Notes under the pieces: model-generated | Told to the model about the DNA's origin: nothing | The model's database searches: none | Seen by the model: the letters and a program-made list of their open reading frames with translations, nothing else | Translations under genes and position numbers: made by a program | Part shown: positions 1-14,607 of the stretch, one piece after another | Layout of the letters: each line of letters begins with the position of its first letter | How positions within the stretch are numbered: the stretch's first letter is position 1 | From: a virus | Virus record (IMG/VR): IMGVR_UViG_3300027969_000510 | Coordinates: 1-20,032 of that record | Length of the DNA: 20,032 nt | Reading direction: 5' to 3' (one strand)

Positions 1-3000
1 CGTATGCAACAATTACAAGTAATGCTGGATTACAATTTGGTACAGGCGATTTTACTATTGATTTTTGGTTTAGACCAGACTCTGTAGGAGTTAATCAAAC
101 ACTAGTTGATATGAGAAATACCGCGTCTGATTCAGCTGTACTTTTAGGTATAAATGGATCAAATAATCTTTACTTGTACGTAAACGGATCAACAAGAATT
201 ACCGGTACAGATAGCGTATCTTCTGAAACATGGTACCATTTAGAATTATCAAAATCTTCAGGATTTACTGAATTATTTTTAAATGGCCAAAGTCAAGGTA
301 CTTGGACAGACGGAACAACTTATGCGTTACGCCCATTAAAAATTGGTGCGGATTATAATGGCGCCGGTGACGGTTTCCTTGGATACGTTGACGAATTTAG
401 AGTATCAAAAGGTACTGCTCGACATACATCTGGATTTACAGTTGCAACATCACCATATACAAATGATTCATTTACAACTGCATTGTTGCATTTTAATGAA
501 TCGCCTGGATCATCATCTTTTGCAGATGACATTGGCGGCTATTCTTCTGGCAATCAATTTGTAATAAGAGGAACTGAATTAGGCGGCGCAACTCCTGCAA
601 ATGATTTAACTATTACAGTATTAACTGTTACAGCAGAACGTAAAATTGATACTATTTCAGCAAGCGGCACTGCATTAGATGACGATGTATATGCAACGTT
701 ATCTGGAACACTATTAACTGGCGGCGGCTCTGGATTAACACTAAACGTAAGCACCAGCGGCACTTCGTATATTACTGTTACAACTAGTTCCCTTGGATTG
801 GGGTATGTTGCAGGTGATAAAGTTAAAGTTGTGGGAACATTATTATCTGGCACTAGTCCAGCAAACGATTTAACTATTTTAATATCTACAGTAGGTGCTA
901 GCGGAGCAGTTGGACTTTTCTCAGTATTATCTGGAACTGCACGAGCCAGCTCGGCAGCTTATAACGCACTTGTACCAACAAATACAGTATCAAAAGGAGC
1001 TGGATTAGCGGCAACAATTGGTAAAGGTGGCGGATCTTACACATTTAACGCTGTTGAAAGCGGCGGCGACAATTATGTAGTTGGTAATAGATTAAAAGTA
1101 TTAGGCAACGCATTAGGTGGTGCTATCATAACACACGACATGATTATTACCGTTACTGAAATAGACACTAGCGGATCAGTAGTTAGCGCCACGGTAACAG
1201 GAACTAGTTCTGGCGGACAAGCGATATCATTCTACTCAACAGTAGTAATTTCAGAACCAACAATTGCTGCATTAACAACATTAACTCCAATTACATTTGC
1301 GGCAATTGCTGTTATCCAAGTTAGCTTTTTACAAAATCATGGACTCGTCCCTGGCGCTGGTATTTTAGTTAATATTACATCAGCAGCACTAAATCAAAAC
1401 TTAGCAGCCGGACCATTCTATGTTGAACAAGTGCCAACCCCAACATTGATTAGGTATACTGCAAGAGCTCAAGGTAATATTAACGTTACTGGTTTAACTG
1501 GCATCATCTATACTAGATCAGATACATTCTTCTCACACAGACCATATGACGGCGGCGTGCAATTAGGTACAGGCGGCCCGCAACACGGTGCTCATGCAAT
1601 TCGTATGAGCAAGAACTATATTCGTTATCAGTCTGGTAAAGGCTTAATGTATACAACTGGTGCATTATTTGCTCCAAGTTATGACTTGTTGTTGGCAACA
1701 TCAAATGGTTTAGCTGTAGGTAGCACAATTACATTTACCACAGACGATGTAGATCACGGATTACAAATTGGTGCAGACGTTAGAATTATTGGTGTTGAAA
1801 CAAGTGGTTACAATAACGACTATGTTGTTTCATCTATTATAAGTGAACGTGTGTTTACAGTAATTTCAACTCAACAGTTAGGTGCAACAACTGCCACATT
1901 AACAAGTCAAGCACAAATTTCATTATATAGATGGAGTGGTGCTACTGTACGTGCTGGTTGTTTTGACGATCAAAACGGTATGTTCTGGCAATATAACGGA
2001 CAGAGATTGGCTGTAGGTGTACGCTCATCAACATTCCAAATTGCCGGTAGTGTGAGTGCAACACCCAACAGCAACTTAATCACTGGTACAAATACACGTT
2101 TCCGTGATCAATTAAAAGCAGGTGATAGAATTGTTATTAAGGGTATGACACATACTGTAACAAGTGTGCCAAATCAAACAACTTTATATATGAACCCAGA
2201 CTATCGTGGCGCCAATGCTGGTAATAAGATTAAACTATGTCGTGTTCAAGATAGGTTATTTTATCAAGAAGATTGGAATAGAGACTCTGGTGATGGTACT
2301 GGACCAAGCGGATACAACATTGACATTACAAAGATGCAGATGATTGGTATCCAGTACACATGGTATGGTGCTGGTTTTATTGACTATATGCTACGTGGAC
2401 GTGAAGGTAACTTCTTATTTGTACATAGAGTTCGTAATAACAACGTAAACACAGAAGCATATATGCGTTCTGCTAACTTGCCAGTGCGTTATGAAGTTGT
2501 TAATGACGGTGCCCTTAACGCATTAAGAGCAGACATGACCACAAGCTCAACATCAATACTATTAGATAGTGCTGAAGATTTCCCAGATACAGGAGTAGTT
2601 TATATTGATAACGAGCTAATATCATACACTTCTAAAACAACTACAACCTTAGACGGTATTACACGTTCATCAGCATTAAGTAACTTCTCTGCTGGTGCAA
2701 CAAGGACATATACTGGCGGAGATGCAGCAGCACATAGTGACGGCACTGGTGTTATTCTTGTAAGTAACAAAACAAGTCCAGTTATTAGTCACTGGGGTAG
2801 TGCTTACTTAACAGACGGTGGATTTGATACTGACCGTGGTTATTTGTTTAACTACCAAGCTACTTCGTTTATTGCCACCACAGCACGTAAGACAGCTTTC
2901 TTAATTCGACTAGCACCTAGTGTATCAAACGCTATTGTTGGTGATTTGGGAGATAGAGAACTAATTAACAGAGCGCAGTTGCTACTACAGGGTATTGAAG

Positions 3001-3677
3001 TTACTGCGGGTACTGGTACTGCTTCTGGTATTGTTCTTGAAGGGGTGTTAAATCCAAGTAACTATCCAGTTGATCCAGCAAACATTGACTGGCGTTCACT
3101 ACAAAACCCATCAGCTGGTGGTCAACCATCGTTTACACAAGTGGCGTTGGGAACTTCTGTAACATGGAATAACTTGTTTACAGTATCATTTGAAGCAGCA
3201 ACACAAACGTATTCTGTAGGTAACGGTTTTTACTATGCAGAATTTGTAGCAACAGACACAGCAAACGTTCGAGTTGGTATGGTTGTAACAAGCCCAACAG
3301 CGGGTATTCAAGCAGTTATTCCAGGCGGTACAACAGTATCGTATATTAGTGGCGTGTTTAACAGAAGTGGTACAAACTATGTAACAATTTATTTTAACAA
3401 AAACTTTACTGGAAATATTGCAACTGGGTCAACTATCGCATTCAGCTCTATTGCTGCGTTCGCTGCTCCTGGTGAAACTATTTTCTCATTTGTTGGATTG
3501 CCAAATAATCAAACATCGTTGAACTTGGGACAGTTGAAAGAAATTACTAATACTGCTATTGGCGGTAGGGGTGTATATCCAAACGGTCCAGACGTATTGG
3601 CCATTAACTGTTACTTGACTGGTGGAAACCAGCAAGAAGTTTCAATTGTGTTGCGTTGGTCAGAAGCGCAAGCGTAA
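1..3677 (+). CDS. Large virion structural protein, LamG-like domain, 5'-truncated
   Basis: The reading frame (full codons from base 3) is open at the left edge, so the true start lies upstream; at least 1,224 residues are present. The first ~150 residues look like a LamG/concanavalin-A-type jelly roll (FGTGDFTIDFWFRP, then WYHLELSKS, LFLNGQ, FLGYVDEFRVSKG), a fold common in phage adhesins. Next come tandem beta-rich repeats of 88-90 residues (about bases 555-1200) sharing a GxxLxGxxPANDLTI-like motif. The middle (about 1950-2560) holds a segment with FDDQNGMFWQYNGQ, GTNTRFRDQLKAGD and EAYMRSANLPVRYE, and the protein ends LRWSEAQA; from memory, both patterns occur in structural proteins of marine T4-like phages. 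It is probably a fibre or baseplate-associated surface protein. No catalytic motif was seen. The exact virion location is inferred. A strong terminator follows 12 bases after the stop. Confidence 0.85.
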   Translation, partial: YATITSNAGLQFGTGDFTIDFWFRPDSVGVNQTLVDMRNTASDSAVLLGINGSNNLYLYVNGSTRITGTDSVSSETWYHLELSKSSGFTELFLNGQSQGTWTDGTTYALRPLKIGADYNGAGDGFLGYVDEFRVSKGTARHTSGFTVATSPYTNDSFTTALLHFNESPGSSSFADDIGGYSSGNQFVIRGTELGGATPANDLTITVLTVTAERKIDTISASGTALDDDVYATLSGTLLTGGGSGLTLNVSTSGTSYITVTTSSLGLGYVAGDKVKVVGTLLSGTSPANDLTILISTVGASGAVGLFSVLSGTARASSAAYNALVPTNTVSKGAGLAATIGKGGGSYTFNAVESGGDNYVVGNRLKVLGNALGGAIITHDMIITVTEIDTSGSVVSATVTGTSSGGQAISFYSTVVISEPTIAALTTLTPITFAAIAVIQVSFLQNHGLVPGAGILVNITSAALNQNLAAGPFYVEQVPTPTLIRYTARAQGNINVTGLTGIIYTRSDTFFSHRPYDGGVQLGTGGPQHGAHAIRMSKNYIRYQSGKGLMYTTGALFAPSYDLLLATSNGLAVGSTITFTTDDVDHGLQIGADVRIIGVETSGYNNDYVVSSIISERVFTVISTQQLGATTATLTSQAQISLYRWSGATVRAGCFDDQNGMFWQYNGQRLAVGVRSSTFQIAGSVSATPNSNLITGTNTRFRDQLKAGDRIVIKGMTHTVTSVPNQTTLYMNPDYRGANAGNKIKLCRVQDRLFYQEDWNRDSGDGTGPSGYNIDITKMQMIGIQYTWYGAGFIDYMLRGREGNFLFVHRVRNNNVNTEAYMRSANLPVRYEVVNDGALNALRADMTTSSTSILLDSAEDFPDTGVVYIDNELISYTSKTTTTLDGITRSSALSNFSAGATRTYTGGDAAAHSDGTGVILVSNKTSPVISHWGSAYLTDGGFDTDRGYLFNYQATSFIATTARKTAFLIRLAPSVSNAIVGDLGDRELINRAQLLLQGIEVTAGTGTASGIVLEGVLNPSNYPVDPANIDWRSLQNPSAGGQPSFTQVALGTSVTWNNLFTVSFEAATQTYSVGNGFYYAEFVATDTANVRVGMVVTSPTAGIQAVIPGGTTVSYISGVFNRSGTNYVTIYFNKNFTGNIATGSTIAFSSIAAFAAPGETIFSFVGLPNNQTSLNLGQLKEITNTAIGGRGVYPNGPDVLAINCYLTGGNQQEVSIVLRWSEAQA

Positions 3678-3689
3678 TACGCAACCACA

Positions 3690-3717
3690 AAAAAACGCTG
3701 CCTGAGCAGCGTTTTTT
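3690..3717. terminator. Bidirectional rho-independent terminator
   Basis: The arms AAAAAACGCTGC and GCAGCGTTTTTT pair perfectly around a CTGA loop. Six T follow the GC stem on the plus strand and seven on the minus strand. It lies between convergent genes (structural protein from the left, Nudix gene from the right), so it likely ends both transcripts. Confidence 0.93.
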
Positions 3718-3729
3718 AATGACTAAAAT

Positions 3730-4179
3730 TCACATTAAATCAATTACATCAAAAACAGTTTGCAGTTTGGTGCGCATGGTTTTATTGCCAAAACTGCTGC
3801 GTAATGCTTGGTGTAGGGGTTTGGGAGATCCGTCAATAGTACTCCAACACCATCCTTCATGTTCTTCGCTAAGTTTAGGTATAAATTCTTCTTCTACAAC
3901 ACATAGATAAGTGTGAAAATTAAAGACACTGTCGTTGCTAACAAATGTTTCTAACGGCATTGTTTTAATTATAGATGGAGGCTCGCCAATTTCTTCTTGG
4001 ATTTCACGCTGTAGACCTTGCCAAGCACTTTCGCCTTGGTCATTAGTGCCACCAACCAAGCCCCATGTGCCCGCATGTTTTCCATGGGATTTTTGTAGTA
4101 ATAAAATTCTACCTGTTTGCTTGGCATAAAATACCGCCCCGCTACAGACAATTTTATCTTTTATAGTTCTAGTCTCCAT
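3730..4179 (-). CDS. Nudix hydrolase
   Basis: This 149-residue protein has a complete Nudix box GX5EX7REUXEEXGU: G44, E50, R58-E59, E62-E63 and G65, with Glu in place of the last hydrophobic residue. The box binds Mg and hydrolyses a nucleoside diphosphate linked to another moiety. The substrate cannot be read; candidates are oxidised or non-canonical NTPs, NADH/ADP-ribose-type compounds or capped RNA ends. It overlaps the 3' end of gp15 by 19 bases and has its own Shine-Dalgarno GAGGGG just before the ATG, so it is the last gene of the leftward gp14-gp15 operon. A housekeeping-type enzyme at the end of a neck/tail operon is a typical auxiliary position. Family assignment is firm; function is not. 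Confidence 0.92.
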   Translation of the reverse strand: METRTIKDKIVCSGAVFYAKQTGRILLLQKSHGKHAGTWGLVGGTNDQGESAWQGLQREIQEEIGEPPSIIKTMPLETFVSNDSVFNFHTYLCVVEEEFIPKLSEEHEGWCWSTIDGSPKPLHQALRSSFGNKTMRTKLQTVFDVIDLM

Positions 4180-5753
4180 GTACCCCTCGCATATTCGCCC
4201 TCAAAGCTCTTGCCCCATTGGACTCCGTTCCACTTGTATTGAACGTTAGTATATATGTTAGTTAGGTATATGATCTGGTCCATTGTGGCGCCAGCATCCA
4301 TTACCACACTCCACTTGTTGCCATCCCACTCAATGATGTCATTGGTGTTGGCAATGAAGTCGCTGTTGTCATCATTCTTCCAAGCATCAGGCCCGTCTTC
4401 ATTCAAGTACAGTTCGTATGTGATTACATCATCAATTGCAACAGTGGTATCCAAACGCAACACCAGCATATCAGCAATATTAGACCCAGTAGCACTGACT
4501 TCGATATCATTTACAAATACTTTATAATCAACAACTTTATTATAGTCTGTATTAGTGTCTAATCGGTTGCTGCGGTTTTCAGCAATTAATGTTTCTCTTA
4601 TGCCGCCACCAATGTTATTAATAATCAAGTATCGTGTACCAACAGTTGGCGCATCTAAACCAGCACCTGGACCACTTTTTTCTGGATCAACAATGGCATC
4701 AAATGTTCCTGGACTGCTAGGCCTACTAACTGACGCAATATCAGTATTGGTTGGGAATGTGTCTGGATCCCAGCTAATTGTTAAAATACTCTCATCAATG
4801 GGATTAAGAGCTGATGTGCCGCTGACCTCAGTCCCACTCTCTTGTATTAAAAATAGTCTGCTTACTCCTGGTCTAAATTGCCCAGGATACGGGTCTAAAA
4901 TAGTTCTCCAGTTAATACTGTTACCCATTTTAACACTGACATATAACGAATTGTTGTTAGCATAGGTAACGTTTTCGCTTGGATCTAAAATTCTAGCGTT
5001 TCCGCCGTGTACAGTTATACCAAAGTTCTCAATGCTGGTTTTTGCTTTATCTAATATATCACTAAAGTTAGGACCTGCCTCAACAGTGTCTACGCCCAAT
5101 CCCTCAATATATCCATTGCCAGCAGTAGTCCCGCCCTTGTAAATACCCATTACAATATTGGTAACAACCCCAAGTGTTTTAACTTTACTAGGTGGACTGA
5201 TCCAGATTGGCATATCAAATGTCAATGTGGCAACATCAATATTACTTTCTGCACCAACTGGAACTTGTCTATTACTAAAAGTCATGTTGGTCAAATTGAC
5301 TACACTTAAACTGGTCCAGTCTAAATAATTGTCAGTTGTTTGTATTTCTAAACTTGGGTTAAACAACATCATAATTTGTTCTAATATCTGCAACTTTTGT
5401 TCAGTACTTGTACTCCAAATATCTGCCTTAACTGTAAGTTTATATGGTGTTGGCATCAAACGTTCTACAGTATAGTTTTTACCCTGTGTACTAGTATACG
5501 CACCGTCTTCAACATCTCTTTCTCGAATGTGTACTTTACCCACGTGAGTTGCATCTGCCAATCTTTCTCGGTCCATTTGTAAATCAGTAATATAAACAGC
5601 AATACGCGGAGCACTGTTAATTTTATTTTCACTGTTTTGACGATTAATGTTGGCTACTTGTCTATCGCTATCACCGTACATAACAGGCACTTGTTTAAGT
5701 GTGCCGTCACCATATTTTACCACAAAGTTGCTTAACAAACGGATTGTTTGCAA
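4161..5753 (-). CDS. gp15: Tail terminator / sheath stabiliser, gp15-like, with long C-terminal extension
   Basis: The first ~200 residues match the T4 gp15 pattern: VPVMYGDSDR, SAPRIAVYITDL, ERLMPTPYKLTVKADIW, EQKLQILEQIMMLFNP and FDMPIWISPP. In T4 gp15 caps the tail tube and sheath and contacts the neck. Length is 530 residues against about 272 in T4; the extra C-terminal half is of unknown function and ends with two W-x-G units (DGNKW, WNGVQW). The start given is TTG, the first standard start codon in frame. It is doubtful: the same frame stays open upstream to 5798 and reads FFYDGQIRRYLL, which matches the T4 N-terminus (YFYNSSFRRY), yet has no ATG, GTG or TTG there. The gene lies downstream of gp14 in the leftward operon and overlaps the Nudix gene. 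Confidence 0.88.
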   Translation of the reverse strand: MQTIRLLSNFVVKYGDGTLKQVPVMYGDSDRQVANINRQNSENKINSAPRIAVYITDLQMDRERLADATHVGKVHIRERDVEDGAYTSTQGKNYTVERLMPTPYKLTVKADIWSTSTEQKLQILEQIMMLFNPSLEIQTTDNYLDWTSLSVVNLTNMTFSNRQVPVGAESNIDVATLTFDMPIWISPPSKVKTLGVVTNIVMGIYKGGTTAGNGYIEGLGVDTVEAGPNFSDILDKAKTSIENFGITVHGGNARILDPSENVTYANNNSLYVSVKMGNSINWRTILDPYPGQFRPGVSRLFLIQESGTEVSGTSALNPIDESILTISWDPDTFPTNTDIASVSRPSSPGTFDAIVDPEKSGPGAGLDAPTVGTRYLIINNIGGGIRETLIAENRSNRLDTNTDYNKVVDYKVFVNDIEVSATGSNIADMLVLRLDTTVAIDDVITYELYLNEDGPDAWKNDDNSDFIANTNDIIEWDGNKWSVVMDAGATMDQIIYLTNIYTNVQYKWNGVQWGKSFEGEYARGTWRLEL

Positions 5754-5807: not shown

Positions 5808-5909
5808 TTAAACCGAAGCCTCCAGCCAAACACGCTTTCCGTCTATTAACTTCCATGTTTTTCCTCTACAATGTGTTGATTCTATGTGCGTGAATTTATA
5901 GATATGCAT
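5808..5909 (-). CDS. Small ORF (33 aa) coupled to gp14
   Basis: The ATG at 5909-5907 overlaps the gp14 stop as TAATG, with AAGG about ten bases upstream, so translation could be coupled to gp14. The product begins MHIYKFTHIES and ends TWKLIDGKRVWLEASV, a composition that looks like real protein; the alternative frame across this gap does not. It stops at TAA in the same frame as gp15, with a second in-frame stop (TGA at 5801-5799) before the gp15 open frame. It may be an independent small protein or a remnant of a longer one. I do not recognise a family, and no function is assigned. It is the only candidate in the 155-base gap between gp14 and gp15. Confidence 0.5.
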   Translation of the reverse strand: MHIYKFTHIESTHCRGKTWKLIDGKRVWLEASV

Positions 5910-7093
5910 TATAAATCTGCCTTAGGTTTTAGAGCTTTACTCAATGCTTGACGCTCTACAATAACTTCTCCACCAATTTCTGCACTAGCAGTATTGTTGA
6001 TGAAACTAGTTTTAAGTGTTTGTTTAGTATCAGTGTTTGACATGGTCATACGTACTGCATCTTCAGTTTTTACCCAACGTGTTCCATCATATCTAAACAA
6101 TCTATTAGGCATAAAGTCAGTACGCAAGTAATAATCATTTAAATGTGCGCTTGCCGGGAAATTTATCCCATGGCCAAAATCAACACCGTTTGGAGGGACA
6201 CCGTCGCCTAATAAGTAGCCAACATAGCCACTACGTATAGCACGTCCGTGTATAGCACTAGCATCTGTTCCACCAAGTGTACTTCCAACAAAACTTGCAT
6301 CAATAGTTGTTTGATCCGCAGTTTGTAGCACTGGCTTGCCAGTGTTTGGATCAATAGCAAGAGTAAAGAATTGTTGTGTTTGATACCCACTTAACGGAGC
6401 ATCTGCTTCAGCTTGTGCTAACAATGCATTATTAATTTCAATTTCTTTAGCGTTAGTACTTAGAATATCTCTCAATGTTTGTGATGACGGATCTCCGTTT
6501 GCATCTGTTGCAGGCTTATCTAAGATGTCAGCAAACTGTTGAGCATCCGTAATTTTTTTAAGTTTAACTCTGTATAAATGCGGCCACCAAGTAATACTGA
6601 ATCCCTCACTTGCCCGACTTACATCTTCAATGACAAAGTAGCGAGGTAACGAAAGTGTGTATTCATTAAGTGCAAAATCATCACGTAAGTGAGGTAATTC
6701 TAATACGTCACCGCTGAGCGGCTTACGCCCTACAGTTTTAATCCAGTCGTTAATATGAACAGTCATAAAAACTGTATCGTTGTCTATAAACAATCCAAAC
6801 TGACTTAAATTGAAATCTAAATTCTGTACATTATAAATGCCTCGAACTTTATAAATGCTAGGGTCATATTTTCTATCCCTATTCTCTAGTAATAAAAGAT
6901 CCTGAATATTAGTTTCTTTTAGCACATCATAGTGTGGCTGATCAGCAGTAGCATTTTCTTGGCTAGTGTTAACACCTATGTATTTGTGGAGGTATAAGTC
7001 AGTACCGCCAATTTGGAACATCTCCCCAATTTGGCGATCTATGAACTTATAATCGTTCCCTTTCTCTGGTTTATATAAACTTAGTCTTGGCAT
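5909..7093 (-). CDS. gp14: Neck protein, gp14-like
   Basis: This 394-residue protein has the pattern of T4-like gp14, the neck protein that with gp13 joins the filled head to the tail. Supporting stretches are MPRLSLYKPEKGNDYKFIDR, NIQDLLLLENRDRKYDP, NVQNLDFNLSQFGLFIDND, GDVLELPHL and WWPHLYRVKLKKITDAQQF; in T4 the matching order is SNFGMQVQDEV, EGDLIYFP and NAIRKITAGKF. I chose the ATG at 7093-7091 over one 63 bases upstream because the upstream one would overlap gp13 and lacks the conserved opening. T4 gp14 is about 256 residues; here the C-terminal part adds a segment with YYLRTDFMPNRLFRYDG followed by TRW, a module also seen in the sheath. The late box GATAAATA sits 7 bases before the ATG and no Shine-Dalgarno site is visible. 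Confidence 0.88.
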   Translation of the reverse strand: MPRLSLYKPEKGNDYKFIDRQIGEMFQIGGTDLYLHKYIGVNTSQENATADQPHYDVLKETNIQDLLLLENRDRKYDPSIYKVRGIYNVQNLDFNLSQFGLFIDNDTVFMTVHINDWIKTVGRKPLSGDVLELPHLRDDFALNEYTLSLPRYFVIEDVSRASEGFSITWWPHLYRVKLKKITDAQQFADILDKPATDANGDPSSQTLRDILSTNAKEIEINNALLAQAEADAPLSGYQTQQFFTLAIDPNTGKPVLQTADQTTIDASFVGSTLGGTDASAIHGRAIRSGYVGYLLGDGVPPNGVDFGHGINFPASAHLNDYYLRTDFMPNRLFRYDGTRWVKTEDAVRMTMSNTDTKQTLKTSFINNTASAEIGGEVIVERQALSKALKPKADL

Positions 7094-7100
7094 AGTAGTA

Positions 7101-7108
7101 TATTTATC
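7101..7108 (-). promoter_or_regulatory. Late promoter box for gp14 operon
   Basis: GATAAATA on the minus strand, one base from the T4 late consensus TATAAATA, 7 bases before the gp14 ATG. It forms part of an inverted repeat (7099-7106 and 7115-7122, eight-base perfect arms) with the divergent gp13 box. Confidence 0.65.
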
Positions 7109-7113
7109 GACAG

Positions 7114-7121
7114 CTAAATAT
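7114..7121 (+). promoter_or_regulatory. Late promoter box for gp13
   Basis: CTAAATAT, two mismatches from TATAAATA, followed by GGAG (7126-7129) eight bases before the gp13 ATG. Divergent partner of the gp14 box; the two share the extended form G(A/C)TAAATATAC. Confidence 0.6.
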
Positions 7122-7137
7122 ACACGGAGATCTAATA

Positions 7138-7908
7138 ATGTCAAATCCAAGTACAAATTTAGCTGAAAGAGAAAAAGTTTATGACTACTGTCGCACTATG
7201 TTGGGCGACGGAATGGTTGATGTTGAGCTTGATCCAAAGCATTATGAAACCGCATTAAACCGCGCTCTAGCACGATATCGTCAGCGTAGCAGTGGTGCTG
7301 TAGAAGAATCTTACTATTTTTTAGAACTAAAACAAGACATTAACGATTATAGACTGCCAGACGAAATTGTGGAAGTTCGTAGTATTTTCCGTAGAACAGT
7401 TGGCAGTAGAACAGCTGGCGGCAGCGGCGGAACACAGTTTGAACCGTTCAATTTAGCCTATACAAATACCTACTTGTTAAACAGTACTATGTTGGGCGGG
7501 ATTGCAACATACGATATGTTTGCTCAATATCAAGAAATGGTAGGTCGTATGTTTGGCGCATATATTGAATTTCAGTGGATTCCCACTAGTCACACATTGA
7601 GAATTTTACAGCGACCTTTTAGTGAAGGTGAACAAGTAATGATTCGTGGATACAATTACAGACCTGACTATATACTGTTACAAGATATCTATGCTGGTCA
7701 ATGGTTTAAAGATTATGCTCTAGCTAACTGTAAAATTATGCTAGGCGAAGCACGTGGCAAATTCAGTCAAATTGCTGGACCTGGCGGTGCAGGCGGCCTC
7801 AACGGAGCAGACATGAAATCTGCTGGTAAAGAAGAACTTGAAAAGTTAGATAAAGAAATTGAACTTTATATTTCTGGCGGCACAGGCTATACATTGGTAA
7901 TTGGATAA
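7138..7908 (+). CDS. gp13: Neck protein, gp13-like
   Basis: This 256-residue protein follows the T4 gp13 pattern throughout: an N-terminal YCRTMLGDGMVDVELDPKHYETAL (T4: YCMRKLGAPVINVEVADEQIEDAI), a middle ELKQDINDYRLPDEIVEVRSIFR, then FQWIPTSHTLRI, GEQVMIRGY and a C-terminus with KFSQIAGPGGAGGLNG and KEELEKLDKEIELY. gp13 binds the portal after packaging and, with gp14, forms the neck to which the tail docks. Start is supported by GGAG eight bases upstream and a late promoter box. It is transcribed away from gp14, unlike T4 where both genes run in the same direction. T4 gp13 is 309 residues, so this one is somewhat shorter. Confidence 0.88.
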   Translation: MSNPSTNLAEREKVYDYCRTMLGDGMVDVELDPKHYETALNRALARYRQRSSGAVEESYYFLELKQDINDYRLPDEIVEVRSIFRRTVGSRTAGGSGGTQFEPFNLAYTNTYLLNSTMLGGIATYDMFAQYQEMVGRMFGAYIEFQWIPTSHTLRILQRPFSEGEQVMIRGYNYRPDYILLQDIYAGQWFKDYALANCKIMLGEARGKFSQIAGPGGAGGLNGADMKSAGKEELEKLDKEIELYISGGTGYTLVIG

Positions 7909-8349: not shown

Positions 8350-9042
8350 ATGATTATTGGTATATGCGGTTTTATTGGTTCAGGCAAAGACACTGTTGCG
8401 GACTATCTAACAAACTTCCACGAATTTAGACGAGAATCGTTTGCCAGCACTCTTAAAGATGCAGTGGCACATGTGTTTGGTTGGGACAGAACCATGCTGG
8501 AAGGTCGCACCAAAGAAGCTCGAGAATGGCGTGAACAAGTGGATCCTTGGTGGGCAACTAGATTAGATATGCCCAGCCTTACTCCTAGATGGGTTTTACA
8601 GTATTGGGGCACAGAAGTTTGCCGCAAAGCATTCCATGATGATATTTGGATTGCCAGTCTAGAGAACAAACTTAGAACTAGTCGTGACCACGTGGTCATC
8701 AGTGACTGTAGATTCCCCAACGAAATCAAATCAATTAAAGATGCTGGTGGTATAATTGCTTGGGTACAGCGAGGTGAACTCCCAGACTGGTATCAAACAG
8801 CATTTGATGCAAACGCTGGATCAAATGTTGCCATGAACGATCTTAAAATGAAAAAGATTCATGCAAGCGAAACCGCTTGGATTGGTACTAATTTTGATAT
8901 TATTTTAGATAATAACGGAACAATTGACAGTTTATACCATCAAGTAAAGCAAGTAATTACAAGTCCGGAACAAGATCGCCCTGTCGCCACTGAACTCCCT
9001 CTTTATGTAGGACTCTCTGACAATTTGCACATATCGTCTTGA
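8350..9042 (+). CDS. gp1: Deoxynucleoside monophosphate kinase, T4 gp1-like
   Basis: This 230-residue protein has a P-loop GFIGSGKD at residues 7-14 and the DNMK-type layout: FASTLKDAVAHVFGW, then VLQYWGTEVCRKAFHDDIWI (T4: LMQALGTDLIVNNFDRMYWV), and VISDCRFPNEIKSI followed by GGIIAWVQR (T4: IVPDTRQDHEMDAARAMGATVIHVVRP). The T4 enzyme phosphorylates dTMP, dGMP and 5-hydroxymethyl-dCMP for phage DNA synthesis; substrate range here is unknown. The last ~25 residues extend beyond where T4 gp1 ends and are encoded antisense to the conserved HNH region of the opposing gene, so the native end was probably replaced. It has its own sigma70-like promoter and an AGGAG site, in contrast to its late-gene neighbours. 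Confidence 0.9.
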   Translation: MIIGICGFIGSGKDTVADYLTNFHEFRRESFASTLKDAVAHVFGWDRTMLEGRTKEAREWREQVDPWWATRLDMPSLTPRWVLQYWGTEVCRKAFHDDIWIASLENKLRTSRDHVVISDCRFPNEIKSIKDAGGIIAWVQRGELPDWYQTAFDANAGSNVAMNDLKMKKIHASETAWIGTNFDIILDNNGTIDSLYHQVKQVITSPEQDRPVATELPLYVGLSDNLHISS

Positions 9043-9298
9043 GATTGCTAGGACGACTGTTATTTAAATTGCCATCTATATGAAACACATTGAACTGTTC
9101 TTTGTGCTTGCCCTTAAACCCGCACTTTTCACAACTGTCTTTCTGACGATATCCATCTAAGTACCATTTAGGAAATCCGTGTGCTACACCGCCATGGCGT
9201 AGGCATGCTTCACACTTACTTCTATAATAAGTGCGACCATCTTTTTTATAATTGATTGCTGCGGGTCTAAAACCGCATAAACACATTGGTCTTGCCAT
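8957..9298 (-). CDS. HNH-like endonuclease / zinc-binding protein
   Basis: This 113-residue protein has three CxxC-type pairs (C6/C8, C29/C32, C56/C59) and then FHIDGNLNN, NLKTICANC with C90/C93. The spacing fits a zinc-ribbon HNH nuclease: H73 with D75 as first motif and an Asn in the middle helix. The usual last His of CxxCH is Gln94, so activity may be weak or absent. Such genes in T4-like phages are often free-standing homing endonucleases inserted between genes. It is antisense to its neighbours and overlaps the 3' end of the kinase by 86 bases. I chose ATG 9298-9296 because AATAAATA lies 4 bases upstream; a GTG at 9316-9314 is in frame but would include the promoter box. Confidence 0.82.
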   Translation of the reverse strand: MARPMCLCGFRPAAINYKKDGRTYYRSKCEACLRHGGVAHGFPKWYLDGYRQKDSCEKCGFKGKHKEQFNVFHIDGNLNNSRPSNLKTICANCQRVLHKEGVQWRQGDLVPDL

Positions 9299-9302
9299 AA
9301 AG

Positions 9303-9310
9303 TATTTATT
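9303..9310 (-). promoter_or_regulatory. Late promoter box for the HNH-like gene
   Basis: AATAAATA on the minus strand, one mismatch from TATAAATA, four bases before the ATG at 9298 and without a Shine-Dalgarno site. Confidence 0.55.
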
Positions 9311-9368
9311 CCGCACCTTTTTGGCACCTTTTCTGGGCTTGTTTGCGTTATGTTTTCTCCAATTAACA

Positions 9369-9408: not shown

Positions 9409-12400
9409 ATGGCAACACTATCATCACCCGGCGTAAGCGTAACAGTTATCGATGAAAGCTTTTATACCCCGGCCGCTCCAGGTACAGTACCTCTAATTAT
9501 TGTAGCGACGGCAGCAAATAAGCAAAACGGAGCAGGCACAGGAATTGCTCCAGGTACACTGGCAACTAACGTTGGAAAGACATATTTAATTACTAGCCAG
9601 AAGGATCTTGTAGATACTTTTGGTGATCCAGTATTTAAAACGGACGCATCAAACAACCCAATCCATGCTGGCGAGCAAAATGAATACGGATTGCAAGCGG
9701 CTTATAGCTTATTAGGCGTAAGCAACAGGGCATACGTTGTACGTGCTGGAATTGACCTAGCGTCAATTAACGCATTAGCAAGTGCGCCAGCAGCTGACCC
9801 TTCAAACGGTACATACTGGTTAGACACAAACACTACATCGTTTGGTATTTTTGAATGGAACGGTACTACTAAGACTCCAACAAATTTAACTGGTCAGACA
9901 TTTACCAAGAAGAATCCACTCGTAATTACCGACACAACAAAGGTTGTGGATTACGCTGGTAGCGACTATGCTCCTAAGACAAGTATTGGCGCAATTGGTG
10001 ATTATGCAGTTGTTTGTTTATCTGACTTAACTACAGATTACGCTTCCCCAGACAAAGTTTATTATAAAAACCGTGCTGGTCAATGGGTACAAGTTGGTAG
10101 CAATGACTGGACAAGTTCATGGCCAACAGTGCAAGGCACCGTTGCAAGTCCAACAATTGTTAACGGCACAATATTTACAATTAACGGAATTTCTGTTACA
10201 GCAAACGCAACCACAGTTACAGCATTAGCAGCTAGGATCAATACTGGCCCAACAGCTTCTTTACTGGCAGCTCAGGGCATTACAGCAGGCGTTAGTGCAG
10301 CTGGTAGGTTAGAAATTTATTCCAATGGTGCAAGTGGCGCAAACAGCGAAGATAGTACAGCTTCAAATGCTGTTGTAATTGCTAGCGGCACAATGAACGT
10401 ATCAACAGTATTAGGTATTACCCCTGGAACTTTTTATGCTCCAAGATTGGCTATACAGCCACACACAAGCATTCCAAACTTTAAAACATCAAATACTGCC
10501 CCACGCCCAACAGGTTCTGTATGGATCAAGACAACTGAGCCAAACAGCGGTGCTAAGATTTCTGTTAAGCGTTATAATTCAGCAACAGATGCATTTGCAG
10601 CAGTCCCAGCTCCACTTTATGCAGACGGCACAGCAGCAATTTATGGCTTAGATCGCACAGGCGGCGGCAGTAATTTAGCAGCTGGATCATTGTTTGTTAA
10701 AACAAACGAACAAGAAGATAGAGGTGCTGACGATACACCACGTGTAGCTGACTTTAGAATCTTTAGACGTTCAGCAGTTGGTACAACAATTATTAAATCA
10801 GCAAAAATTGCAGCACAATTTACTTCTGGAACAAACACTTTTTCAATCGCAGAAAGTGTCGTTGGCAGTGCTACACTAGCAACTGCTATAACTGTAACTT
10901 GTTCTTCAGCTACTGGAAACGCATTAACAGGCGGTTTATCTGATGCAGACAAAGTTGCTGGAGCAATTAACTCGGCAGGATTTGCTAATATTGTTGCTGA
11001 AGTAGATAGTTTAAATCGAATTGTTATTAGTCACACTAAAGGTGGTGAGTTCCGCTTAACTGACGGTACTGCAACTCCTTTGAGTAAAGTATTTTCAGTA
11101 ACAGGTACTGCGGCAACAACCAATTTATACGCATCACCAACTGGCGATGTTACATCAGATTACGTTGCTACACTATGGGAACCGTTGCGTTTTACAGCAG
11201 GCGGGACAGCACCAACTTCACTAACAGCAAACGGTACTTTATGGTACAACAGTATTGTTGACGAAGTAGACATTATGATCCACAACGGAACTACTTGGGT
11301 TGGTTACAAGGATGTATCAAATCCGTTAGTAGTTGATTTGGGCGCCGGAATTAAAGCAACAGATGTGAATGGTCCAATTGTTGCAGCCACTGAGCCAATA
11401 ACACAAAGCGACGGAGAAACAGCTCTTGCTAACGGTGATTTATGGATTGACACAAGCGATGTAGAAAATTATCCACAAGTTTACAAGTTTAACGGAATAT
11501 CGTTAAAATGGGAATTGGTTGATAGTTCCGATCAAAGTACTGAAAATGGTATTTTATTTGGTGACGCACGTTACAACACAGCAGGTGCAAACAGCGATGA
11601 GCCAGGTCTGATTGCCGACCTATTAGAAAGCAATTTCTTAGACTTTGATGCTCCAGATCCAGCACTATACCCACAAGGTATGTTGTTATGGAACTTACGT
11701 CGTTCAGGATTTAACGTTAAGCGTTATGCACGTAATTATGTTGACGTGACTGCAATAAACACTCGTGTTAACGGCGCAGTAGGAGAAACACAAGCTGCTT
11801 ACTATCCAAATCGTTGGGTAAGTGAAGCTGGCAACCAAGAAAATGGTGCTGGTACATTTGGGCGCAAAGCACAACGTAAAGTTGTGGTACAAGCGTTACA
11901 GGCACTTGTTAACAGCAACCAAGAGATCCGTGAAGAAGAGCAAAGAGTGTTTAACTTGATTGCTTGCCCAGGATACCCTGAGTTGATTGGTGAAATGATT
12001 ACACTAAACTACGACCGTGGATTGACAGCATTTGTTGTTGGCGATACACCAGCTCGCTTAACAAGTGACGCAACAAGTTTAAGCAACTGGGGCAATAACG
12101 CAGCACTAGCATTAGAAGACAATGATTTGGGCGCAGCAAGCTTCGACGAATACATGGCTATGTTTTATCCATGGGGTTACACCAGTGACAACTTTGGTAA
12201 CAACGTAGTTGTCCCACCAAGTCACATGATGTTACGTACTATTGCACTAAGCGACAACGTTTCTTATCCATGGTTTGCACCAGCAGGTACACGTCGTGGT
12301 GGTATTACTAATGCATCAGCAGTTGGATATATCAGCTCAGAAGGCGAATTTACAGCAGTTGCATTAAACAACGGACAACGTGATACATTGTATGATGTTA

Positions 12401-12801
12401 AAGTTAACCCAATTACATTCTTAACAGGTGTAGGTCTTGTAAACTACGGTCAGAAGACTCGTGCTAGAAATGCTAGCGCATTAGACAGAATTAACGTAGC
12501 ACGTCTAGTAATTTACTTACGTAGACAGCTAAGTGTTCTAGCTAAGCCATACATTTTTGAACCAAACGATAAAATTACTCGTGACGAAATCAAAGGTGCT
12601 GTGGAAAGTTTAATGCTAGAACTATTAGGTCAACGAGCACTATATGACTACATTGTTGTTTGTGACGAAAGTAACAATACACCAAGTAGAATTGATAGAA
12701 ACGAATTGTATGTTGATGTGGCCATTGAACCGGTCAAAGCAGTTGAGTTCATCTACATTCCATTACGCCTAAAGAATACTGGCGAAATAGCTGGTCTATA
12801 A
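9409..12801 (+). CDS. gp18: Tail sheath protein, gp18-like, with large insertions
   Basis: The N-terminus MATLSSPGVSVTVIDESFY and the last ~380 residues are those of a contractile tail sheath: PQGMLLWNLRRSGFNVKRYA, FNLIACPGYPELIGEM, MFYPWG, YPWFAPAGTRRGGI, INVARLVIYLRRQL and the end AIEPVKAVEFIYIPLRLKN. Sheath subunits stack around the tube and contract at infection. Length is 1,130 residues against 659 in T4. The extra residues (about 125-715) hold repeated short beta units of the type G-x-L-W-x-x-T followed by NG and W (near 134, 369, 609, 676) and two segments (about 242-306 and 464-566) resembling flagellin_IN modules (TIFTINGISVTANATTVTAL, then AARIN). These probably decorate the outer sheath surface. 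The start is supported by AGGAGA nine bases upstream. It is followed by gp19 after 33 bases. Confidence 0.95.
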   Translation: MATLSSPGVSVTVIDESFYTPAAPGTVPLIIVATAANKQNGAGTGIAPGTLATNVGKTYLITSQKDLVDTFGDPVFKTDASNNPIHAGEQNEYGLQAAYSLLGVSNRAYVVRAGIDLASINALASAPAADPSNGTYWLDTNTTSFGIFEWNGTTKTPTNLTGQTFTKKNPLVITDTTKVVDYAGSDYAPKTSIGAIGDYAVVCLSDLTTDYASPDKVYYKNRAGQWVQVGSNDWTSSWPTVQGTVASPTIVNGTIFTINGISVTANATTVTALAARINTGPTASLLAAQGITAGVSAAGRLEIYSNGASGANSEDSTASNAVVIASGTMNVSTVLGITPGTFYAPRLAIQPHTSIPNFKTSNTAPRPTGSVWIKTTEPNSGAKISVKRYNSATDAFAAVPAPLYADGTAAIYGLDRTGGGSNLAAGSLFVKTNEQEDRGADDTPRVADFRIFRRSAVGTTIIKSAKIAAQFTSGTNTFSIAESVVGSATLATAITVTCSSATGNALTGGLSDADKVAGAINSAGFANIVAEVDSLNRIVISHTKGGEFRLTDGTATPLSKVFSVTGTAATTNLYASPTGDVTSDYVATLWEPLRFTAGGTAPTSLTANGTLWYNSIVDEVDIMIHNGTTWVGYKDVSNPLVVDLGAGIKATDVNGPIVAATEPITQSDGETALANGDLWIDTSDVENYPQVYKFNGISLKWELVDSSDQSTENGILFGDARYNTAGANSDEPGLIADLLESNFLDFDAPDPALYPQGMLLWNLRRSGFNVKRYARNYVDVTAINTRVNGAVGETQAAYYPNRWVSEAGNQENGAGTFGRKAQRKVVVQALQALVNSNQEIREEEQRVFNLIACPGYPELIGEMITLNYDRGLTAFVVGDTPARLTSDATSLSNWGNNAALALEDNDLGAASFDEYMAMFYPWGYTSDNFGNNVVVPPSHMMLRTIALSDNVSYPWFAPAGTRRGGITNASAVGYISSEGEFTAVALNNGQRDTLYDVKVNPITFLTGVGLVNYGQKTRARNASALDRINVARLVIYLRRQLSVLAKPYIFEPNDKITRDEIKGAVESLMLELLGQRALYDYIVVCDESNNTPSRIDRNELYVDVAIEPVKAVEFIYIPLRLKNTGEIAGL

Positions 12802-12834: not shown

Positions 12835-13461
12835 ATGGCAATCGCAACATTATCAAAATTCACAGTGCCGCTAGCATCAGATGCTAGCGCATCAGCACAA
12901 GGCTTGTTGATGCCAAAGCTCAAATATCGCTTTAGAGTGATGTTTGAAAACTTTGGTGTTAGTACACCAACAACAGAACTTACCAAGCAAGTACAAAGTG
13001 CTGCTCGTCCTAACCTGGCATTTGCTAACCAGACCATTGAGATCTATAACAGTAAAATCAACTTTGCAGGTAAGCCAACATGGCAAACCATGTCAATTGT
13101 TTTACGTGACGATGTTACTGGTTCAGTAAGCAAGCTAGTAGGCGAACAACTACAGAAACAATTTGACTTCTTTGAACAAGCTTCAGCAGCTTCTGGCGTA
13201 GACTACAAGTTCACACTACGTATTGAAATGTTAGATGGCGGAAATGGCGCTAACACCCCAACAGTATTAGAAACTTGGGAATGTTATGGTTGTTATGTAA
13301 CCGCAGCCAACTATCAAAACTTAGCATACGGTGAACAAGGTCCGTCAACTATTGATATTACAATTCAACCAGATAACTGTATCCAAAGCCCACAAGGCAC
13401 AGGTGTTGGTACAGCAATTGGCCGTACTGTAAATACTTTAACAACTGGCGCAGGCCGTTAA
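12835..13461 (+). CDS. gp19: Tail tube protein, gp19-like
   Basis: This 208-residue protein sits directly after the sheath gene, as gp19 does after gp18 in T4, and has the matching layout: KLKYRFRVMFENFG, VQSAARPNLAFANQTIEIYN, GKPTWQTMSIVLRDDV, FDFFEQA, and YGCYVTAANYQNLAYGEQGP. Tube subunits form hexameric rings of the inner tail conduit. T4 gp19 is 163 residues; the excess lies partly at the N-terminus (a Ser/Ala-rich stretch ASDASASA) and at the Gly/Thr-rich C-terminus. GGAG ten bases before the ATG and a late box support the start. A strong terminator follows within two bases, so sheath and tube form a transcription unit. A near-perfect DNA palindrome lies at codons 12-18. Confidence 0.93.
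   Translation: MAIATLSKFTVPLASDASASAQGLLMPKLKYRFRVMFENFGVSTPTTELTKQVQSAARPNLAFANQTIEIYNSKINFAGKPTWQTMSIVLRDDVTGSVSKLVGEQLQKQFDFFEQASAASGVDYKFTLRIEMLDGGNGANTPTVLETWECYGCYVTAANYQNLAYGEQGPSTIDITIQPDNCIQSPQGTGVGTAIGRTVNTLTTGAGR
12869..12889. repeat. Palindrome inside the 5' end of the tail tube gene
   Basis: Ten-base perfect arms CGCTAGCATC and GATGCTAGCG are separated by a single A, starting 34 bases after the ATG. As RNA it could fold as a seven-pair stem with a seven-base loop. Part of it follows from the repetitive residues ASDASA. Confidence 0.6.
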
Positions 13462-13536: not shown

Positions 13537-14607
13537 ATGGCAAGTAAAAACAACGGCTTCTTAGATCAGCTAGTAAATGGCATAACAAACCCCAAGGGTA
13601 ATCTTGGCTCGTGGCAACACGCTAGCCGGACGTTTCAAGACGACTATTTCAGACTAGCTCCTAAGAGTAAATTCTTATATCATGTCTTCTTTGACATCAA
13701 TACAAGTGCTTTAAAGTCACTTAACTTAAAATATCAACATCAAAATGAAATTGGTCTTTTAGTTAAGAGTGCTGACTTACCAAAATTTACACTAAAAACA
13801 GCAACCCTTAATCAGTACAACAGAAAAAAAGTTGTACAAATGGATCACGAGTTACAACCTTTAAATATTAAATTCCATGATGACCGCGCACACATCATTA
13901 ATACAATGTGGCAAAATTATTATGCGTATTATTACTCAGACCCAAGTGCAGCAAAAACGCCTGGAGCATATAGTCGTACTGCAATGAAAAGTTCTAATTA
14001 TATTAGAACAACATACGGTTTTGATAACGGTAGTTCAATTCCTTTTTTTAATAAAATTGTTTTATATCAGCTAAACAAACGAGAGTATGTAAGTTACACA
14101 CTTATCAACCCGTTAATCACAACATTTTCTCACGACCAAGTACAAAGCAGCGATCAAGGATCTGCAGGCGCTGAAAACAATATGACTATTGCTTATGAAG
14201 CAGTGGCATACGATGTGGGGTCTATTAGAGGTGGAAAAGTTAAAGGTTTTGCAGTTGATCACTATGATAAAACCCCAAGCCCATTATCCGCAGCAGGTGG
14301 CGGCACATCAAGTATTTTTGGACCAGGCGGTGTTATAGATGGCGCTGCAGATGTATTAGATAGTTTAGCTAGTGGTGAAGCTTTTGAAAGTCCGGCTAAC
14401 TTTTTATCAACTGCAATAACCGCAGTTAATACATATCAGAACACAAAAGGGTTAACTAATGCTGGCATTGCACAAGAAGGGAAAAACTTACTTATTGGCG
14501 GAACTATAGCGGTTGCCGCAGCAGGATTAAGCGGATTAAAAAATATAGTATTTCCATCTAGCACAGGCAATGGAAATACTACTCAAGCAAATCAAGTGGA
14601 TTTTTAA
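13537..14607 (+). CDS. Tail tube-like protein, possibly gp54-like tube initiator
   Basis: This 356-residue protein begins MASKNNGFLDQLVNGITNPK. Its first ~240 residues have the layout of a tail-tube fold: FLYHVFFDIN, EIGLLVKSADLPKFTLKTAT, LNQYNRKKVVQMDHELQPLN, IKFHDD, then an aromatic YYAYYYSDP and AYEAVAYDVG. T4 gp54, which starts tube polymerisation on the baseplate, is a tube paralogue with a comparable PENRLSYETDW...LDPLVISF segment. Position right after gp19 fits a tube paralogue. The C-terminal ~100 residues are Gly/Ala-rich and contain a hydrophobic stretch (LLIGGTIAVAAAGLSGL) of unknown role. The tube-like fold is a reasonable call from pattern; the specific gp54 role is inference, and a different baseplate or tube component is possible. 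Confidence 0.6.
   Translation: MASKNNGFLDQLVNGITNPKGNLGSWQHASRTFQDDYFRLAPKSKFLYHVFFDINTSALKSLNLKYQHQNEIGLLVKSADLPKFTLKTATLNQYNRKKVVQMDHELQPLNIKFHDDRAHIINTMWQNYYAYYYSDPSAAKTPGAYSRTAMKSSNYIRTTYGFDNGSSIPFFNKIVLYQLNKREYVSYTLINPLITTFSHDQVQSSDQGSAGAENNMTIAYEAVAYDVGSIRGGKVKGFAVDHYDKTPSPLSAAGGGTSSIFGPGGVIDGAADVLDSLASGEAFESPANFLSTAITAVNTYQNTKGLTNAGIAQEGKNLLIGGTIAVAAAGLSGLKNIVFPSSTGNGNTTQANQVDF

Follow-up and report, generated by a model that had tools for sequence, protein, structure and literature searches.

The tail sheath protein encoded by the virus DNA analysed here, a record of 20,032 nucleotides referred to as the window, very probably has a core split into an N-terminal and a C-terminal part, between which profile comparisons and structure models place an accessory arm of Trp/Asn-Gly units and two flagellin_IN/FliD-like domains. 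The protein is a further example of the known enlarged sheaths of jumbo phages and not a new kind of system; it is fairly likely to be a multi-domain subunit of the RaK2/121Q/PA5oct/Atu_ph07 jumbo lineage, in which the outer accessory arm widens and stabilises the tail.

Identity and Architecture of the Sheath Protein

The sheath gene is an ORF on the plus strand (9409–12801, stop codon included) that starts with ATG and encodes 1,130 aa. In the PHROG search, phrog_10581 (annotated as "tail sheath") spans residues 1–1125 with an E value of 3e-233, and in the Pfam profile search PF17482 matches residues 1023–1119 above its cut-off (E 5e-15); PF04984 has no match anywhere in the window, PF17482 being the model that recognises the sheath. 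T4 gp18 matches residues 885–1119 (E 3e-27), the insert being devoid of sequence match to it, and the adjoining gene (12835–13461) encodes a tail tube protein assigned to phrog_4542 (E 8e-51). Judged from these matches, the gene encodes a gp18-type contractile tail sheath protein. The first-pass annotation had given its length as 1,130 residues versus 659 in T4, which agrees with the ORF and with the 659 aa of the T4 gp18 chains. The roughly 590 extra residues that it counted are correct as the size of the inserted region and not as the gain over T4; the net difference is only 471 residues, since T4 gp18 has domains of its own at the site of the insert.

The sheath was modelled with AlphaFold2 from 64 sequences, giving a mean pLDDT of 77.7 and a pTM of 0.60, with pLDDT values of 80–94 across most of the insert and poor values in the last 130 residues. 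The model aligns with the solved sheath 9ev2 (Z 23.9, 323 residues, 3.7 Å) over the model range 25–1124, and many other solved sheaths also align with the core, including T4 gp18 (3j2m, Z 21.1); this full-length comparison is dominated by the core and is uninformative on the insert. Because the matched range reaches from residue 25 to 1124, both termini build the core and residues ~117–712 are accessory. The N-terminal part of the core comprises residues 1–116 (9409–9756, plus strand) and the C-terminal part, which contains the PF17482 match, residues 713–1130 (11545–12798, plus strand), with mean pairwise identities among relatives of 77% and 78%, respectively. Between them lie about 600 accessory residues, formed by four Trp/Asn-Gly beta-meander units and the two domains named A and B.

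Enlarged sheaths of this sort have been modelled by Evseev et al. 2022 (PMC9230969) for Atu_ph07, SCTP-2, RaK2, and SP27, whose multi-domain proteins, classified as type 3, have 1,086, 955, 888, and 887 aa, respectively; the published lengths reach 1,283 residues, with at least five domains. Type 3 sheaths possess a core and at least two additional domains, an arrangement shared by the window sheath, where the stretch separating the two parts of the core holds A, B, and the Trp units; as in the window, the conserved core of the published type 3 proteins is split N- and C-terminally and several domains, termed Ig-like by those authors, are located in between (PMC9230969). By sequence, the window sheath is directly related to those of Atu_ph07, SCTP-2, and RaK2, the last of which was reported in 2013 to be larger than that of T4 (PMC3622015). 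T4 gp18 itself is similar in core sequence and fold and is shorter by the residues mentioned above.

Trp/Asn-Gly Units of the Accessory Arm

The first-pass annotation had described repeated short units with a Trp/Asn-Gly signature, a description borne out by motif counts against shuffled sequences and by profile links against core controls. The units, all on the plus strand, are U1 (residues 120–175, 9766–9933, motif GTYWLDT), U2 (residues 352–408, 10462–10632, GSVWIKT), U3 (residues 594–645, 11188–11343, GTLWYNS), and U4 (residues 655–712, 11371–11544, GDLWIDT), and each of them forms a short beta meander in the AlphaFold2 model. The strict pattern G[TSD][YVL]W[LIY][DKN][TS], which was defined after inspecting the sequence, occurs four times in the sheath (residues 134, 369, 609, and 676); none of 20,000 shuffles contains it more than once. 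When the units are compared as profiles, U1 is linked to U3 (prob 88.5) and U2 to U4 (79.3), with a less firm link between U1 and U4 (48.2), and the 28 control comparisons of units with core segments remain at or below 3.5. The direct links U1–U2 (1.6), U2–U3 (0.5), and U3–U4 (2.7) are lacking, which argues against four equal copies; a fifth candidate at residues 414–465 has at best a weak profile link (21.2).

Among relatives, a relaxed version of the motif occurs three times in six of the seven named sheaths and once in that of Vibrio phage 2.275.O, and the four strict motifs occur together in only two of the 64 aligned sequences, 20 of which contain none. In the alignment of the clade, W137, W150, W372, W612, and W679 are invariant and W630 and W701 almost so; on this alignment, what the clade conserves is the Trp positions rather than the strict motif.

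In a search of 2,601 ORFs, taken from the window and from 85 loci, a pooled Trp-unit profile had no convincing match outside the sheaths (best E 0.026), and with separate unit and domain profiles the only targets under 950 aa were sheaths of named phages. Of 32 matching ORFs of 200–799 aa, 24 are relatives of two minus-strand neck genes, as are 58 of all 412 ORFs of that size; when compared as profiles, the neck protein encoded at 5909–7156 reaches prob 33 and gp15 prob 8. Sharing of the Trp unit by neck proteins is only suggestive on these figures, because the matching relatives are not independent and the two probabilities are so low.

The neck protein of 5909–7156 (minus strand, phrog_11591) carries the segment NDYYLRTD...LFRYDGTRWVK, which resembles a Trp unit. 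The gp15-type sheath terminator (4161–5753, minus strand) is enlarged to 530 residues, PF16724 covering only residues 6–207, and its C-terminal part contains Trp/Asp-Gly stretches similar to half a Trp unit; T4 gp15 has about half this length. In the locus L012, the same neck gene (2092–3696, minus strand) encodes 534 residues with additional sequence near the C-terminus, and therefore neck proteins may gain inserts too.

Flagellin_IN-like Domains A and B

Domain A corresponds to residues 240–348 (10126–10452) and domain B to residues 458–577 (10780–11139), both on the plus strand; their profiles match each other with prob 95.8 (E 7e-9), so that on sequence grounds A and B are homologous copies of one domain. 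Two flagellin_IN-like segments had been proposed in these regions, with a profile search against PF07196 as a check. The segments are real and mutually homologous, and for both, PF07196 is the Pfam family matched most often in the relatives, hitting domain A in 29 of 63 (best E 6e-6; next family, four members) and domain B in 30 of 63 (best E 1e-5; next family, three members), counts that refer to sub-threshold matches from a search that does not give the cut-off. The part of the proposal that did not hold concerns the window protein itself, whose own A and B are unmatched by PF07196 in searches with the sheath whole and in pieces.

A separate model of residues 240–577 (pLDDT 80.5) was compared with solved structures by Foldseek and, on its 1000 best rows, by VIA-align. 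Foldseek gave no match under E 0.001 for this model, and Vibrio cholerae flagellins occupy its top four rows (0.03–0.09). In VIA-align, the predicted model shows the FliD/flagellin D2 fold, with V. cholerae FlaD (9n8a, Z 9.4, 90 aligned residues, 2.4 Å), FlaA (9n8g, on domain A, Z 9.2, 89 aligned, 2.5 Å), and Escherichia coli FliD (5h5w, Z 9.1, 96 aligned, 2.5 Å) at the head of the list, FlaD and FliD being the matches assigned to domain B; they are accompanied by the sheaths of phiTE (Z 8.4, 89 aligned, 2.5 Å) and A-1(L) (8kee, Z 7.6, 84 aligned, 2.4 Å) and by FlgK (Z 7.1, 95 aligned, 3.3 Å). Flagellins and FliD together range from Z 6.0 to 9.4, LPMO domains from 4.2 to 5.3, and the other rows reach at most 3.6; a Z under 8 possibly reflects a common arrangement, and the best flagellar rows are barely above this value. 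The strand order in the models is strand-strand-helix-strand-strand-strand. A search of BFVD with residues 240–577 retrieved the sheath of Myoviridae sp. ctWb16 (E 5e-13) and two further proteins under 0.001, followed by weaker rows of sheath, baseplate, and structural proteins.

The flagellin likeness could also be a generic resemblance among beta-sandwiches arisen without common descent, a reading that appears unlikely. It would account for the absence of a PF07196 match in the window and for the promiscuity of this family, which has matches in 10 of 14 control genomes, three of them above the cut-off, and even in the gp15 core of one relative (E 1.8e-5), a match taken here for chance; in addition, the PDB profile search ranked two unrelated chains above the flagellins for A and gave nothing flagellar for B. 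Against it, the reversed sequences match PF07196 in none of 31 cases for A and none of 28 for B, flagellins or FliD make up four of the nine PDB profile rows for A (E 0.01–0.4), and the flagellar rows are well clear of the unrelated ones in the fold comparison. Moreover, the sheath of Atu_ph07 exceeds the curated cut-off of PF07196 (26.6 versus 22.7 bits), as no other of the 16 records does, and the sole NCBIfam row for the window sheath is FliD, over residues 513–561, a match (E 0.03) that falls far short of the family's cut-off. The flagellin_IN assignment is thus upheld at the level of family and fold, though without a PF07196 match in the window's own copies: PF07196 leads the Pfam matches of the relatives, and the structure prediction placed flagellins and FliD at the top of the fold list.

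PF07196, the D2 domain of FliD, and the D2 domain of flagellin resemble the window domains in the order of strands and helix and in predicted fold; unlike the flagellar proteins, the carrier is here a viral sheath, and the window copies fall short of PF07196. The sheath of phage Adele has a lateral domain that is reported not to be directly involved in contraction; it is described as a beta-sandwich of seven strands and a helix, and FliD and flagellin are named among its matches (PMC12846349). The fold has been noted in further virion proteins of phages as well, such as nozzle and auxiliary capsid proteins (PMC12846349). Type 2 sheaths, including those of Adele, phiTE, and Sf14 (PMC12846349) and also that of A-1(L), have one such lateral domain, whereas the window sheath combines two flagellin_IN-like domains with Trp units. 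Flagellotropism, which might be read from a flagellin-like fold, was rejected because the fold is found across many sorts of phages and virion proteins. Both the existence of large sheaths bearing outer domains and the similarity of such a domain to flagellin are already published; duplicated flagellin_IN-like sheath domains and a scaffold of Trp units with three slots were not found described in a limited literature search.

Relatives and Evolution of the Insert

Among annotated phages, 2,575 records match the sheath and 16 cover at least 80% of the query, namely Atu_ph07, Phosso, the PA5oct group, SCTP-2, and Vibrio phage 2.275.O; no nucleotide-level match to the window was found in the phage collection. 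In IMG/VR, at least 597 stretches among 600 candidates listed encode a relative of the sheath, and 70 of the best 80, which were kept, contain the full gene, with 1,081–1,157 residues.

The domains within the insert change faster than the core, the mean pairwise identity being 77–78% for the core, 55–63% for U1–U4, 46% for B, and 38% for A. The dN/dS of A is above that of the C-terminal core in 14 of 14 close pairs, which share sequences and are not independent, and it is at most 0.35 for A and 0.45 for B. Selection on A and B, as estimated from these codon comparisons, is relaxed and purifying, not diversifying; domain-wide positive selection is not seen in either of them.

The domains also differ in their presence and position. 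A is missing in the alignment from four of five named relatives (RaK2, 121Q, PA5oct, and SCTP-2) and B from Atu_ph07. In the window sheath, flagellin_IN-like domains fill slots 2 and 3; in Phosso and Atu_ph07, one flagellin-like domain is located in slot 1, after U1, and a second one in slot 2. PA5oct, SCTP-2, RaK2, and 121Q have sequence in slot 3, and only that of PA5oct scores against the B profile, weakly (7 bits). The fast change, the higher dN/dS, and the absence of A from four relatives are as expected of parts dispensable for contraction.

Genomic Context

The sheath gene is accompanied by genes for a gp15-type terminator, a virion structural protein, a head-tail adaptor, a dNMP kinase, tube proteins, a TnsA-like protein, and a terminase, a set that fits the neck/tail block of a T4-related phage; PA5oct, RaK2, and 121Q show a similar order around the sheath (adaptor/neck, dNMP kinase, sheath, tube/structural, head completion/closure). 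Downstream, two consecutive tail-tube-like genes (12835–13461 and 13537–14607, plus strand) match phrog_4542, the second with an E value of 6e-8 and with a long additional C-terminal part; two tube genes are annotated in PA5oct and three in RaK2. An HNH endonuclease gene (8957–9316, minus strand; PF01844 just above cut-off) is located between the genes for the dNMP kinase and the sheath, in opposite orientation, and overlaps the end of the kinase gene, and annotated homing endonucleases are present elsewhere close to the sheath in PA5oct and RaK2. A Nudix hydrolase gene (3730–4179, minus strand; PF00293, E 9e-17) adjoins the terminator gene, and a similar gene was recognised by eye at this position in L012 (76–573). 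The large ORF 3–3677 (plus strand), cut by the start of the window, has at its present N-terminus a domain of the concanavalin/laminin-G type (PF13385, E 2e-18).

Possible Role of the Accessory Arm

In the published models, the extra sheath domains are placed away from the tube and are suggested to serve in adhesion, appendage formation, or stability (PMC9230969); in phi-Kp24, the outer part of the sheath is directed outward and unused in assembly contacts (PMC9700779). By analogy with these sheaths, the insert of the window protein would have an outward position.

Direct contact with the host surface, in which the flagellin-like domains, exposed outward along the tail shaft, would raise adsorption by binding glycans or other structures on the host, agrees with the published hypothesis of adhesion (PMC9230969) and with A and B being the fastest-changing part of the sheath, with higher dN/dS; nevertheless, it is rather unlikely, since the low dN/dS ceilings of both domains are not those of domain-wide diversifying selection, the fold recurs in nozzle and auxiliary capsid proteins (PMC12846349), and stability is published as an alternative to adhesion (PMC9230969). 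The contact suggested by the first-pass annotation is not favoured by the results, none of which supports it. Even less probable is a docking platform, by which the arm would anchor the thin filaments, or whiskers, that related jumbo phages carry on their tails. Appendage formation is one of the published suggestions (PMC9230969), and in phAPEC6, a relative of 121Q, filaments are arranged along the sheath; these occupy three rings only, though, out of the 25 that contain the sheath subunit (PMC7247149). In addition, the whiskers of Atu_ph07 are chiefly on the capsid (PMC6102473), and the sheath of 121Q is devoid of domain A.

The preferred reading is that of a subunit with a stabilising outer arm. 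Its N- and C-terminal parts would form the core round the tube and contract, a task for which the fold match is complemented by what is known of the family. The arm, with its Trp/Asn-Gly beta-meander units and the two flagellin_IN/FliD-like domains predicted between them by profile and fold, would be directed away from the tube, taking no direct part in contraction if published sheaths are a guide. The accessory domains would pack on the sheath exterior, widening and stabilising a large tail, and the outer surface would tolerate fast sequence change and the gain or loss of domains. A further role in weak adhesion or in docking tail whiskers may be added; that stabilisation is the main role of the accessory domains has about even odds.

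A flagellar cap and filament building block recurs within the sheath subunit of a contractile phage tail, where it is present in duplicate. It is conceivable, though doubtful, that the protein is a modular display chassis, in which a conserved arm of Trp units offers three slots and flagellin_IN-type domains are duplicated, moved, or lost from one phage to another; if so, the tail shaft would be covered by many copies of an exchangeable module, which would adjust the contact of the shaft with its surroundings. Close relatives differ in the slots that are filled, and therefore the lineage offers a clean natural comparison for the role of outer sheath domains.
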